A DNA stretch of 64,000 nucleotides from Pyrinomonadaceae bacterium. GTDB taxonomy: Bacteria > Acidobacteriota > Blastocatellia > Pyrinomonadales > Pyrinomonadaceae. Made by a program: the position numbers and the translations under genes. How positions within the stretch are numbered: the first letter of the stretch is position 1; every line of letters begins with the position of its first letter. Below are positions 11,470-45,498 of the stretch, in pieces. The notes beneath the pieces were generated by a model. That model was not told the origin of the DNA. It saw only the letters and a list, made by a program, of their open reading frames with translations, and did not search any database. Location: assembly GCA_036277115.1 (NCBI GenBank), contig DASUNM010000027.1, positions 806,001 to 870,000 on the forward strand. Reading direction: 5' to 3'.

Positions 11470-11711
11470 CAATCTGTTTCCAAAAGACTGTTCGCTCATT
11501 CCTTCGTGTTATTCCTGGCGCGCACGCGGCCATCCGGGCGCACTGCTGCATCTTTGACGAAGGGCAGCTGAAGTTGATTAAGACAACCCGGGAGACGAGT
11601 CTGGGGTTTAGGTTGTCCTTTCGAATTCTGAGGGGCCGAGGCCGATTATACGCGCCGCAACAGCCGGCTGCCATAACCAATTTGCCCGATCGGCCGGGCG
11701 CAGGTCGCTCA

Positions 11712-12542
11712 TCACGCCGTCGCGTAACTTATTTCAGCGATGACCCAGCGGTCGCCTTCGCGGCGCCAACGAACATAGGTGTGGCTGGTAAGGTGCTCGC
11801 CGCGAGGCACAAACTTATTTCCCCTAAAGCTAGTCCACATTTTGTTGTCGGGAAAGTTATCCACAAAGGCATCGAAGTCCCCGTTATCGGCGCGCTCGAT
11901 CAATAGCCAATAAAGATCGCCTTTCTTCTTCACATCCCTGGTTAATTGCGCGTAGCTAATCGAGTTGCGAAAATATTTCTTTGATCCCACGTTCATCGGA
12001 TTCAAGTGAAAAAACGGGCGCGTGCGCGAAAACAGAGAAAGAAATAAAGACGTGTTACGAGTGCGCATTGCGCGGATAAGTTTTCTCATCGCCGCCGCAA
12101 GTGCGGCTGGCGGGGCCGAGGTGCGGTTGCTGGGCGCATTATCAATTGTAATGGTGAGCGAAAAACGTGCGACCCGGTAATCTGCCGGCTTCGTCACGAA
12201 GACCACATAGTCCCCGGTCTGTTTTAGCGTGCCGGACCAGTAGTAGTGATACGACTCGTCCTTACCGTCAGGGTCTTTAACGAGGAATATTGCTGAGTCC
12301 TGCGGGGCGGATGTGACCTCTATCAGCATCCATTGGCCCGCCCGGGCTTCCACCGCGTACTCGAATTGTTGATCGCCGCGTATCGTACCCTTCAAAGTTG
12401 CACTGTTTGTCCCGCGGGGAAATTGCACGCGGAGTGGCTCGGCTTTTCCACCTTGAGCAAGAGCCGGTTGGGCAAAGCCCAAGCAAAGCACCAAAACAAA
12501 GAACGGCGTCAGCGCGAAGTTGAGAATTAAACGGTTCCTCAT
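11712..12542 (-). CDS. Exported protein with PPC-like N-terminal domain, function unknown
   Basis: 276 residues with a signal peptide ending PALAQG. Residues about 35-130 look like a bacterial pre-peptidase C-terminal (PPC)-type beta sandwich (G-T-I-R-G-D-Q-Q-F-E-Y near the start, G-D-Y-V-V-F-V near the end). Residues 145-276 resemble an NTF2-like fold: a helix of basic and hydrophobic residues followed by strands such as H-T-Y-V-R-W-R and W-V-I-A-E-I. No catalytic motif is visible. It is monocistronic, separated by about 240 bases from the divergent-side dehydrogenase. Confidence 0.6.
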   Translation of the reverse strand: MRNRLILNFALTPFFVLVLCLGFAQPALAQGGKAEPLRVQFPRGTNSATLKGTIRGDQQFEYAVEARAGQWMLIEVTSAPQDSAIFLVKDPDGKDESYHYYWSGTLKQTGDYVVFVTKPADYRVARFSLTITIDNAPSNRTSAPPAALAAAMRKLIRAMRTRNTSLFLSLFSRTRPFFHLNPMNVGSKKYFRNSISYAQLTRDVKKKGDLYWLLIERADNGDFDAFVDNFPDNKMWTSFRGNKFVPRGEHLTSHTYVRWRREGDRWVIAEISYATA

Positions 12543-41884: not shown

Positions 41885-41973
41885 GCCGGAGTGGCGAAAT
41901 TGGTATACGCACCAGACTCAAAATCTGGCGAGGTTCACTCCTCATGAGAGTTCGAGTCTCTCCTCCGGCACCA
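41885..41973 (+). tRNA. tRNA-Leu (anticodon CAA), CCA encoded
   Basis: The acceptor stem GCCGGAG/CTCCGGC, the anticodon stem CCAGA/TCTGG with loop CTCAAAA (anticodon CAA, UUG codon), a long variable arm and TTCGAGT in the T loop give a class II tRNA of 86 bases plus encoded CCA. The AT-richer island starts just downstream, a common site of integration. Confidence 0.97.
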
Positions 41974-42191: not shown

Positions 42192-42407
42192 CTACTTCGT
42201 TAAGACAAGCCAAGAGTGCTGAATCAGCAGAATCAGAATAAGGATTGTTACGATCAGCTCCTTAGATTCCCAGGCTAATTCCTTACCTCTCCGCACAGTA
42301 TGTATGGCCACATCGAAGTAGTAGTCGATTGACGGATGTTGGGACCTGCTTACAGGAAGAATTGTTGGACTCGATTTGGCGGGTTTAGGTGCAAGTTGTT
42401 CAGACAT
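42192..42407 (-). CDS. Small protein with C-terminal membrane segment (island gene 4)
   Basis: About 71 residues from the ATG at 42407, which has GGAG eight bases upstream; longer frames to 42536 exist. The first 45 residues are polar with Pro and basic residues, then L-I-V-T-I-L-I-L-I-L-L-I is a single hydrophobic segment close to the C-terminus. It would be a tail-anchored membrane protein. It is the last minus-strand gene of the island, about 190 bases after the coupled pair, so cotranscription is possible but not certain. No family recognised. Confidence 0.45.
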   Translation of the reverse strand: MSEQLAPKPAKSSPTILPVSRSQHPSIDYYFDVAIHTVRRGKELAWESKELIVTILILILLIQHSWLVLTK

Positions 42408-42593
42408 ACGCATTACTCCATTTTCTTTGCGTTGTGTCTGAAACTGGGTATTAGGGTATGCCCGAAACACCCTCTTTGCAACCGAAAAAGAAGTTATTAC
42501 TGTAATAACTTCTGCTGATAAACCGAAGAGAGGCAAACAAAACTTTTCGCTATCTAATTTGAAGTTTTCTTTTGTGGATTTTTGAACCGCTAG

Positions 42594-42911
42594 TTACGTC
42601 TTGCGTTTTCGCCCACCCTTCTTTTTCTGTGGCCACCGTCCGCTTTGAACCACAGCCGGCGCTCGCTCATTCGGGTTGCGGCGTATTGCATTTGGGGTGA
42701 TCGGTTTCCCCTCACGTTCTTGAGCAGCCTGAAGTACAGGAAACTCGATGCCTTCAACAAGCAATGGTTTTCCGTTAGCCCCCCCCGCGAGAGTTTTCCA
42801 CCAGTCTCTTCTTTGCTTGCTACCGCGTGCCGCTATCTTCTCCATAGCTTCGTCGATCTGACTGACCACGTCATCATAGTTATTCTGATTCAGCCACTGT
42901 CGCCAGTTCAT
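42594..42911 (-). CDS. Unknown protein with basic tail, coupled to upstream gene (island gene 3)
   Basis: 105 residues; the start ATG overlaps the preceding stop as ATGA, implying translational coupling. An N-terminal W-R-Q-W-L helix leads into a conserved-looking core (R-R-D-W-W, G-G-A-N-G-K-P, E-G-I-E-F-P-V-L-Q-A-A) and the last 12 residues are almost all Lys/Arg (K-K-K-G-G-R-K-R-K), suggesting nucleic-acid binding. No family recognised. Confidence 0.65.
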   Translation of the reverse strand: MNWRQWLNQNNYDDVVSQIDEAMEKIAARGSKQRRDWWKTLAGGANGKPLLVEGIEFPVLQAAQEREGKPITPNAIRRNPNERAPAVVQSGRWPQKKKGGRKRKT

Positions 42912-43732
42912 GCGTCGCTCTCGTCTGCCGATTGCCAGATATGCACTTTGCTTTCGGGACCGCTCTCAATCATCCAGATTTGTTCTTCACCATTCACGAG
43001 CTGAATGATGCTTCTAACAAAGAGCTTCTTAAACAGTAAGCGAATTTTGGCAAGTTCGTCATCATCTTGGTAGGGAAAAATAAAGCGCGTGACAGCCGTA
43101 GTCTCATCTACTAAATATCTTCGGCCAATCTTTTGGAAGGCAGCAACTTCGTCTTGCGTAAGCACCTTACCGGAGCGGAATCGGCCGTCTACATGGCTGA
43201 TCGAATAACCTACGAAGTGATCTTCGATGAAGTTTAAGATTTCTAAAAGGTACAGGTCATCAGAGATACCTGCTAAACGCGGAAAGAGGCCACTTAAATC
43301 CGACGAGGAAATGGTTCGCAGCTTTGCGAGTAAGGTGTCTTTGTAAAACAATGCGTCAAGGGTTGTGCGAAGGTAAGCCTCGTTCGTCAATGGCATCAAG
43401 AAGTCATAAATCAAAACCTCTCGCTTGATCGGCTCATAGTCAGTGACGACTCTACGTACTTGAGTGACATGTTGTTTGAACCGTCGCCAGTCGACGAGTT
43501 TCCGGAATGATTCAGTTACGTGAAACCTTTCGCTCGGGGATATTTTGAACCCACCACCTACATTTTCTATTAAGCCCTTATACAGCTTACTGAGATATGT
43601 TTCGTAAGTTCTAGGCTTCTTTTTATCCCACCCAACCGCGTCGACGAATTCGGCGAGTGTAAAAGGTTCCTGAGTCTGAAGATGCTCTAATAGGAAGGTG
43701 TGGGCAGCGCGCTGGGTGTTGTCTTTCCCCAT
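42908..43732 (-). CDS. Unknown protein with N-terminal winged-helix-like region (island gene 2)
   Basis: 274 residues. Residues 10-60 (A-A-H-T-F-L-L-E-H-L, F-T-L-A-E-F-V-D-A-V-G-W, Y-L-S-K-L-Y-K-G-L-I-E) look like a winged helix. The remainder is helical with a strand-rich end; no nuclease motif such as PD-(D/E)XK or HNH is visible. It lies 94 bases after the Dam-like methylase gene and is coupled to the 105-residue gene, the arrangement of a restriction or defence partner. Function is unknown. Confidence 0.68.
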   Translation of the reverse strand: MGKDNTQRAAHTFLLEHLQTQEPFTLAEFVDAVGWDKKKPRTYETYLSKLYKGLIENVGGGFKISPSERFHVTESFRKLVDWRRFKQHVTQVRRVVTDYEPIKREVLIYDFLMPLTNEAYLRTTLDALFYKDTLLAKLRTISSSDLSGLFPRLAGISDDLYLLEILNFIEDHFVGYSISHVDGRFRSGKVLTQDEVAAFQKIGRRYLVDETTAVTRFIFPYQDDDELAKIRLLFKKLFVRSIIQLVNGEEQIWMIESGPESKVHIWQSADESDA

Positions 43733-43826
43733 TTCTTTTTTCCTGTGCCTTCACGAGCCGCGCGGGTTGGTTGGTCTTCGGGATCCTGGCGGCCGGCTTC
43801 GTCAGATTTCAGCTGCGCGAATCATA

Positions 43827-44717
43827 CTACGGCAAATTTCGGATCGCCATGACTTCTGGGGCTGGGGTTCTATCGCCATTGCAGCTTATTCGGCGGGGAG
43901 CCTTCATAAACTTGAGGTCAAAGCCTAGTCTTCGGTAGAGATCGATTATTCGTTTCGTCGCCTGATTAACTAGAATAACCGGTCCCGGATGCTTAGATAA
44001 CCACACTGCGGTTGTTTCTTGCTCATGCCAGCCAAATCCCCCTTGTGAATACTGGCGAAACTCCACGTCGTACGGAGGATCCGCATAAATGAAGTCGTGT
44101 TCGTGTAGGTCAAGCTCTTTGAAGTGCAGATTGGTGAATTCCCAATTGGCAAACAGCGCCCGATATTCCCGAAAATCCACTTTGTAGCTGATCTTTTCGT
44201 AACGACCAAACGGCACATTAAATTCGCCACTCCGATTGAATCGGCAAAGCCCGTTGAAGCCGGTTCTATTGAGATAGTAGAAGAGGCCTGCAGCTTCTCG
44301 CGTATCGCTTTTTCCCTCTTTTAATAGTCTGTTGAAGTCACGACGCCGCGCATAGAAAAACGATTCGTTATTCTTTGCGACTAAGTCCGACACAAACCCT
44401 CGCTTTAGCTGTCTATAAAAATTGATCAGATGGGGATTGATGTCATTTAGCAACGCGTTCTCAGGCAGAAGTCCGAGTGCTACTGCAAGACCGCCGCAAA
44501 AGGGTTCCACTAGCCTCCTATATTGCTTAGGCTGCCAGTAAGGAACGAGGTAAGGAATCTGCCATCGTTTGCCGCCAGCCCACTTGAGTGGTGGACGAGC
44601 TCTTGCAGCAGGAGGTTCCGCTTCAAACAAGGTTGGTAAGAATGAGCGTGCAACTGCCGACATTTGATTCAAAGTTCGTAACGCGATTCGCAGCTGATAG
44701 TACAGAGGCTGTTGCAT
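43827..44717 (-). CDS. DNA adenine N6-methyltransferase, Dam-like (D12 class)
   Basis: 296 residues. L-K-W-A-G-G-K (44-50) is the D12-class SAM-binding motif and D213-P-P-Y216 the catalytic motif. The target-recognition stretch G-F-N-G-L-C-R-F-N-R-S-G-E-F-N-V-P-F-G-R-Y closely resembles Escherichia coli Dam, predicting GATC methylation. The first 40 residues precede the core and the true start may be the ATG at 44663. It is the first gene of the AT-richer minus-strand island and is 76 bases beyond the livF stop, so readthrough from the transporter operon is possible. Confidence 0.92.
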   Translation of the reverse strand: MQQPLYYQLRIALRTLNQMSAVARSFLPTLFEAEPPAARARPPLKWAGGKRWQIPYLVPYWQPKQYRRLVEPFCGGLAVALGLLPENALLNDINPHLINFYRQLKRGFVSDLVAKNNESFFYARRRDFNRLLKEGKSDTREAAGLFYYLNRTGFNGLCRFNRSGEFNVPFGRYEKISYKVDFREYRALFANWEFTNLHFKELDLHEHDFIYADPPYDVEFRQYSQGGFGWHEQETTAVWLSKHPGPVILVNQATKRIIDLYRRLGFDLKFMKAPRRISCNGDRTPAPEVMAIRNLP

Positions 44718-44793: not shown

Positions 44794-45498
44794 TTATTCC
44801 CCGAGGTAGGCTTCTTTAATTCGCGGATCGTTGGCGAGGTCTTTGGAATTACCTTCCATCGTGATCTCGCCGGTTTCCAAAACGTAAGCGCGATCGGAAT
44901 GGTGCAGGGCAGCGTGGGCGTTCTGTTCGACGAGCAGAATCGTAGTGCCTTCGCTGCGAATTGAATCGATCGCTTCGAAGATTGTGTGCACCACCAGGGG
45001 CGCCAGACCCAACGAAGGCTCATCAAGCAGAAGCAAACGCGGACGAGACATCAGTGCTCGTCCCATGGCCAGCATTTGCTGCTCGCCGCCGGACAAGGTG
45101 CCGGCCTTCTGATTTTCGCGCTCTTTCAGACGCGAAAACATCTCGAAAACTTTCGCCAGGTCGCCGTTTATCTGGGCGCGGTTCTTTTGCAGATACGCAC
45201 CCATATTCAGGTTTTCGCGTACGGACAAATTCGCGAACACGCCGCGCCCCTCGGGCGACATCGAAATTCCGCGGGCTACGAGTTTGTGAGTCGCCGTGCC
45301 GCCGATGTCCTCGCCCTCGAAAGTGACCTTGCCGGCACGCGGCGACAGCAAGCCGGTGATCGTGCGCAGCGTGGTGGTCTTGCCGGCGCCGTTCGCGCCA
45401 ATGAGCGTTACGACCTCGCCTTTCTCGACATGCATCGAGATGCCGCGCAGCGCTTCGATGGCGCCGTAATTCACTGAGACATTTTCTAAAGTCAGCAT
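44794..45498 (-). CDS. livF: Branched-chain amino-acid ABC transporter ATP-binding protein LivF
   Basis: 234 residues. Walker A is G-A-N-G-A-G-K-T-T, the signature L-S-G-G-E-Q-Q-M and Walker B L-L-L-L-D-E-P-S. Length and the E-A-Y-L-G-E end match LivF. It pairs with LivG to energise uptake of Leu/Ile/Val or related amino acids. Separated from livG by a 74-base inverted repeat. Confidence 0.95.
   Translation of the reverse strand: MLTLENVSVNYGAIEALRGISMHVEKGEVVTLIGANGAGKTTTLRTITGLLSPRAGKVTFEGEDIGGTATHKLVARGISMSPEGRGVFANLSVRENLNMGAYLQKNRAQINGDLAKVFEMFSRLKERENQKAGTLSGGEQQMLAMGRALMSRPRLLLLDEPSLGLAPLVVHTIFEAIDSIRSEGTTILLVEQNAHAALHHSDRAYVLETGEITMEGNSKDLANDPRIKEAYLGE

Follow-up and report, generated by a model that had tools for sequence, protein, structure and literature searches.

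Gene content and composition of the island

The window analysed here is a 64,000-bp stretch of DNA from a Pyrinomonadaceae bacterium (NCBI GenBank assembly GCA_036277115.1, contig DASUNM010000027.1, positions 806,001 to 870,000 of the forward strand), and the host genome that was searched alongside it is 4.85 Mb in size and 100% complete. Four minus-strand ORFs, designated M, W, B and T, occupy the interval between a tRNA-Leu(CAA) gene and the liv operon (Table 1). Their G+C contents were 0.45-0.53 against 0.56-0.59 in the flanking genes, and the third-codon-position G+C contents were 0.49-0.54 against 0.67-0.70. W and B were joined by an ATGA overlap at positions 42908-42911. The original prediction for this locus had described the position of the four ORFs, their visibly lower G+C, this overlap, a Dam-like D12 methylase and the absence of a visible restriction endonuclease, all of which were borne out in the present analysis.

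Table 1. Features of the island and its flanks (positions in the window)
Feature	Position	Strand	Description
tRNA-Leu(CAA)	41885-41973	+	Island flank
T	ORF 42192-42536, probable gene 42192-42407	-	71 aa from ATG 42407; hydrophobic C-terminal segment
B	42594-42911	-	105 aa, basic tail; no family matches
W	42908-43732	-	274 aa; ORF intact; no family matches
M/W gap	43733-43826	no strand	94 bp; slot occupied by PDDEXK_11 nuclease R in relatives
M	43827-44717	-	Dam-like D12 N6-adenine DNA methyltransferase, 296 aa (Pfam/NCBIfam/PADLOC)
livF	44794-45498	-	First gene of liv operon; island flank

No repeat of the tRNA 3' end that would mark an att site was found in the window, and a promoter and terminator scan gave no more matches than expected by chance. 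GATC occurred in the window at 0.91 of its expected frequency, neither notably rare nor frequent, unlike CTAG, which was strongly under-represented over the whole window (33 seen versus 62 expected, 0.53).

The methylase M

M matched Pfam MethyltransfD12 (PF02086) with an E-value of 1.9e-41 (142.9 bits, cut-off 22) and NCBIfam dam (TIGR00571) with 178 bits (cut-off 114.85), and as these curated cut-offs were exceeded across the whole domain, M was assigned to the Dam/D12 family. The catalytic DPPY was present as YADPPYD, and 95 of the 96 positions that were invariant among 38 homologues were kept, indicating that M is under constraint. In a search of the host genome, M was the sole Dam-like gene found.

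The nearest solved structures to M by sequence were M.DpnII (8e-27) and E. coli Dam (1e-22). When M was aligned with both, a segment NGLCR...NVPFGRY was found to be common to M and E. coli Dam, the residues of which we take, from Dam structures, to contact GATC in the E. coli enzyme. The shared segment makes GATC the likely target of M.

Accessory genes W and B and the small ORF T

No credible family was found for W or B in Pfam, NCBIfam, PADLOC or PHROGs, and PDB profile searches gave no credible structure match for W, B or the nuclease R described below. Profile searches recognised neither an effector fold nor a nuclease or transmembrane family in either protein, and AlphaFold models made without an alignment had pLDDT values of 38 for W and 51 for B, too low to be of use. 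The first ~60 residues of W may correspond to a helix-turn-helix or winged-helix segment, which they resemble. W, B and T had no PADLOC 2.0 matches up to an E-value of 1, so that the three genes did not point to any known anti-phage system.

T, for which a tail-anchored small protein had been proposed, does have a hydrophobic C-terminal segment, but its start is probably ATG 42407, which has a GGAG 8 nt upstream, rather than TTG 42536, and its coding status is unproven. It is an ORFan without family matches in Pfam, NCBIfam, PADLOC and PHROGs; no relatives were found in 60 related genomes or in any other cassette, and T lies outside the cassette described below.

Cassettes with W in related genomes

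Seven further genomes of the phylum had a relative of W beside a homologous M, and at all seven loci R or a remnant of R was located beside M. The most complete locus was that of G216, a genome from another family of the phylum, with the order integrase-M-R-W-B, in which M was 63% identical to M of the window, the W relative following M-R was 57% identical and the B relative directly after W was 52% identical; like the window, it had no att repeats. W of G216 was split by a frame change, which is possibly a frame error. M and R were intact in G412 and G480, where W was cut short, and in G512, where a shorter W was joined to a portion of B. G472 retained, behind M, just the final 30 residues of R and 29 of W; what was left in G493 was a stretch of about 25 residues from R and the C-terminal portion of W. 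G634, from the window's own family, had a rearranged W-M-R-B order in which all four genes were broken. The W relatives other than that of G216 were 38-64% identical to W of the window, which was the only intact copy among the eight W loci found. Intact R and intact W were thus together at none of the eight loci; this mutual exclusion was not significant, given one intact W in eight loci (chance about 0.5).

A search for the same gene order elsewhere, which had been suggested together with the original prediction, thus recovered, from other genomes, linkage of M, W, B and R, with the order preserved in most cases, and supports M, W and B as members of a linked restriction-modification cassette. 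The M-R-W-B architecture had no counterpart in the libraries searched and appears to be undescribed. No W relatives were found in plasmids, phages or viral contigs.

Four further candidates were set aside. The Treponema match to W (L002) was a chance match through a DYEPIKRE peptide inside an adenylate-cyclase-like protein, and the weak W match in G196 (33%) was likewise due to chance, having no adjacent M or R and a frame antisense to a membrane-protein gene. The B-like match in G014 was also a chance match, with unrelated genes on both sides and an internal stop, and G489, with a W-like helix-turn-helix stretch of 35 residues only, was not used.

The nuclease R and its absence from the host

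R of the relatives is a PD-(D/E)XK nuclease of about 138 residues (137 aa in G216) that matched Pfam PDDEXK_11 (PF20472; E 5e-11 and 4e-12), and its gene starts either overlapping the 3' end of M or within a few bases after it. The motif carries Ser (S-x-K) at the position where PD-(D/E)XK nucleases usually have D/E, which makes the activity of R less than certain. PADLOC gave no match to R up to an E-value of 0.1.

In the window, neither tblastn nor profile searches matched R, and no recognisable remnant was found in the 94-bp gap between M and W. As an earlier PF20472 search of the host genome had no positive control, a search with an R profile and controls was added; the profile was silent over the whole host genome, though it matched in four of four positive controls. 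The nuclease that a Type II restriction-modification system encodes with its methylase was therefore present in relatives but missing from the host, and M was classed as an orphan methyltransferase with respect to R, a status under which an unrelated nuclease of the same specificity could still exist.

Distribution of R in the wider M family

M-R pairs without W or B recurred across the phylum, with a complete R at eight other M loci examined. Among 30 loci with a close M from one class of the phylum, a complete R was found directly behind M in 12, including 4 W loci, while R was cut by a contig end in 1, frameshifted in 1, present as fragments in 3 and not found within ~1.5 kb in 13. Nine members of the window's family whose genomes carry a related M had no R anywhere. 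As R is common without W, any helper role of W would be confined to some of these systems. When the state without R was placed on the M tree, at least 5 changes were forced by well-supported branches and 10 were required on the best tree, indicating that R was repeatedly lost (or gained), and the R fragments in relatives, with remnants in G472, G493, G085 and G634, show the loss to be real. Through these remnants, several relatives display repeated decay of R.

In the tree, M of the window was placed with R-associated methylases and apart from the orphan methylases linked to tRNA-Leu in G002 and G034 (99/98); the corresponding gene of G005 was left out. In a smaller tree it grouped with R-associated methylases and three orphans of the genus (97/96). 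Its branch was long (0.75), and it had no firm placement inside the large M clade. The response-regulator gene and the tRNA-Leu(CAA) of the window are also present in G002, G005 and G034, which are of the same genus or family; there, a Dam-like gene comes next, on the opposite strand. The tRNA-Leu(CAA) site seems to attract methylases. The window copy most likely originated when an M-(R)-W-B cassette arrived horizontally at the tRNA, which agrees with the low G+C of the island.

The tRNA-Leu(CAA)-linked methylases of relatives were located at L036:8229-9221, L037:7468-9101 and L039:7609-8486, beside an HD-GYP response regulator. That of G005 (L039:7668-8486) contained an interrupting stop, with another C-terminal piece lying 3 kb away (11669-11821). 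In a relative of the same genus, the neighbouring genes included the acidobacterial VWFA domain (TIGR03436), which points to Acidobacteriota as the probable phylum. In G484 (L091:1735-2343) an M-R pair was followed by a ~200-aa protein with a TIR-like sequence by eye, possibly another accessory effector.

Phage counterparts of the M-R pair

Of 19 viral contigs, 10 had an R-like nuclease near a D12 methylase, and so did cyanophage S-RIM12. The viral pairs were those of L041:2815-5394 (S-RIM12), L062-L069, L071 and L073, and their R-like proteins belong to PHROG 6124, annotated as 'unknown function'. The D12 methylase and PDDEXK_11-like gene of cyanophages and related viral contigs probably form a phage-encoded restriction-modification pair, and this independent association supports R as the partner nuclease of M.

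Interpretation of the locus

We interpret the locus as a decayed Type II restriction-modification cassette that has lost its nuclease and left a solitary Dam-like methylase, a reading to which we assign a probability of roughly three in four. The cassette, its gene order, the missing R and the conservation of M can be read from the sequences compared here, and the loss of R, as opposed to its never having been present, would follow by parsimony from R or a remnant at all seven other W-bearing loci, although the 94-bp gap contains no recognisable remnant. In the ancestral M-R-W-B form, M would mark adenines, most likely in GATC, and R, as the putative cognate nuclease, would cut the sites left unmarked. 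W, with its probable helix-turn-helix DNA-binding N-terminus, and B, which is small and very basic, would be accessory proteins that are translated together and most likely assist R by binding DNA. After the loss of R in the host lineage, M would have survived under constraint as the solitary Dam-like methylase of the cell, and W and B, still open without a nuclease partner, may be relics or re-used DNA-binding proteins; that they are intact though R is gone hints at a function of their own or at a recent loss.

A function of their own is the core of one competing explanation, in which M-W-B would be self-contained as a working defence or epigenetic system: M marks the DNA, and W and B detect that mark or serve as effectors, so that R is not needed. 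The conservation of M agrees with such a system, as do the intact W and B in the window where R is missing and the broken W at the loci with an intact R; the latter pattern is, however, of the non-significant size noted above, the other W loci all retain R or its remnant beside M, and nothing resembling an effector was recognised in W or B. We therefore regard a self-sufficient M-W-B as unlikely. A related reading, an undescribed W/B pair that would cooperate with a Dam-like methylase and do without the nuclease (such as a DNA-binding methylation-state reader or a nuclease-free defence), with R optional and the window as the only intact form seen so far, is similarly doubtful. M might instead be an ancient orphan methylase that serves the family as a housekeeping enzyme, with W-B inserted beside it by chance, given that orphan Dam-like genes adjoin the same tRNA-Leu in G002, G005 and G034 and lie elsewhere in other members of the genus. 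M of the window, however, has the opposite orientation and lies 1.9 kb beyond the position of these orphans, it is separated from those of G002 and G034 in the tree, and other families also have the M-(R)-W-B linkage, making a chance insertion quite improbable.

The original prediction had proposed a new restriction or abortive-infection module with M as the modification enzyme, W as a sensor or nuclease and T as the membrane effector, drawing on four co-oriented low-G+C genes adjoining a tRNA and on the hydrophobic tail of T. Its restriction component was partly upheld in that M, W and B are parts of a recurring restriction-modification cassette, but with R missing the window copy is not supported as a working one. 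The abortive-infection component was not supported, because an effector gene conserved with the cassette was not found: no other cassette contains T, the cassette's nuclease is encoded by a separate gene, R, and PADLOC matched M to methylase models with few exceptions and matched nothing in W, B and T. The T-effector module is accordingly given very little credence. A methylase that is solitary among unrelated neighbours in relatives, which had been named as evidence against the prediction, was found in the nearest relatives but not in more distant ones.

One methylase clade holds all stages, with nuclease, with remnants and alone, and the conversion of restriction systems into solitary (housekeeping) methylases becomes directly traceable in it. 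The combination of a Dam-like M, a small PDDEXK_11 R and two uncharacterised proteins can moreover be tested starting from the relatives with an intact R.

Comparison with known systems

M shares with the DpnII/Dam family (D12, TIGR00571) the scores above cut-offs, the DPPY motif and the GATC-contact segment, and differs by a ~40-residue N-terminal extension and by its embedding with W and B. The two-gene Type II M-R systems of the phylum and of T4-like cyanophages combine a Dam-like M with a PDDEXK_11 nuclease, M being homologous in the members of the phylum; in contrast, the window has no R but has W and B, which those systems do not have. Restriction systems with accessory genes are known, and some of those genes were hypothesised to be toxins (PMC12707154). 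Orphan methyltransferases that adjoin REase genes in a degraded state were reported by Seshasayee et al. (cited in PMC6471742), and the citing article also quotes work that found the transition from restriction system to orphan to be infrequent. The present locus resembles these orphans in its conserved methylase, the loss of the cognate nuclease and the R remnants in relatives, but differs from them in that two intact accessory genes without a known family adjoin the methylase.
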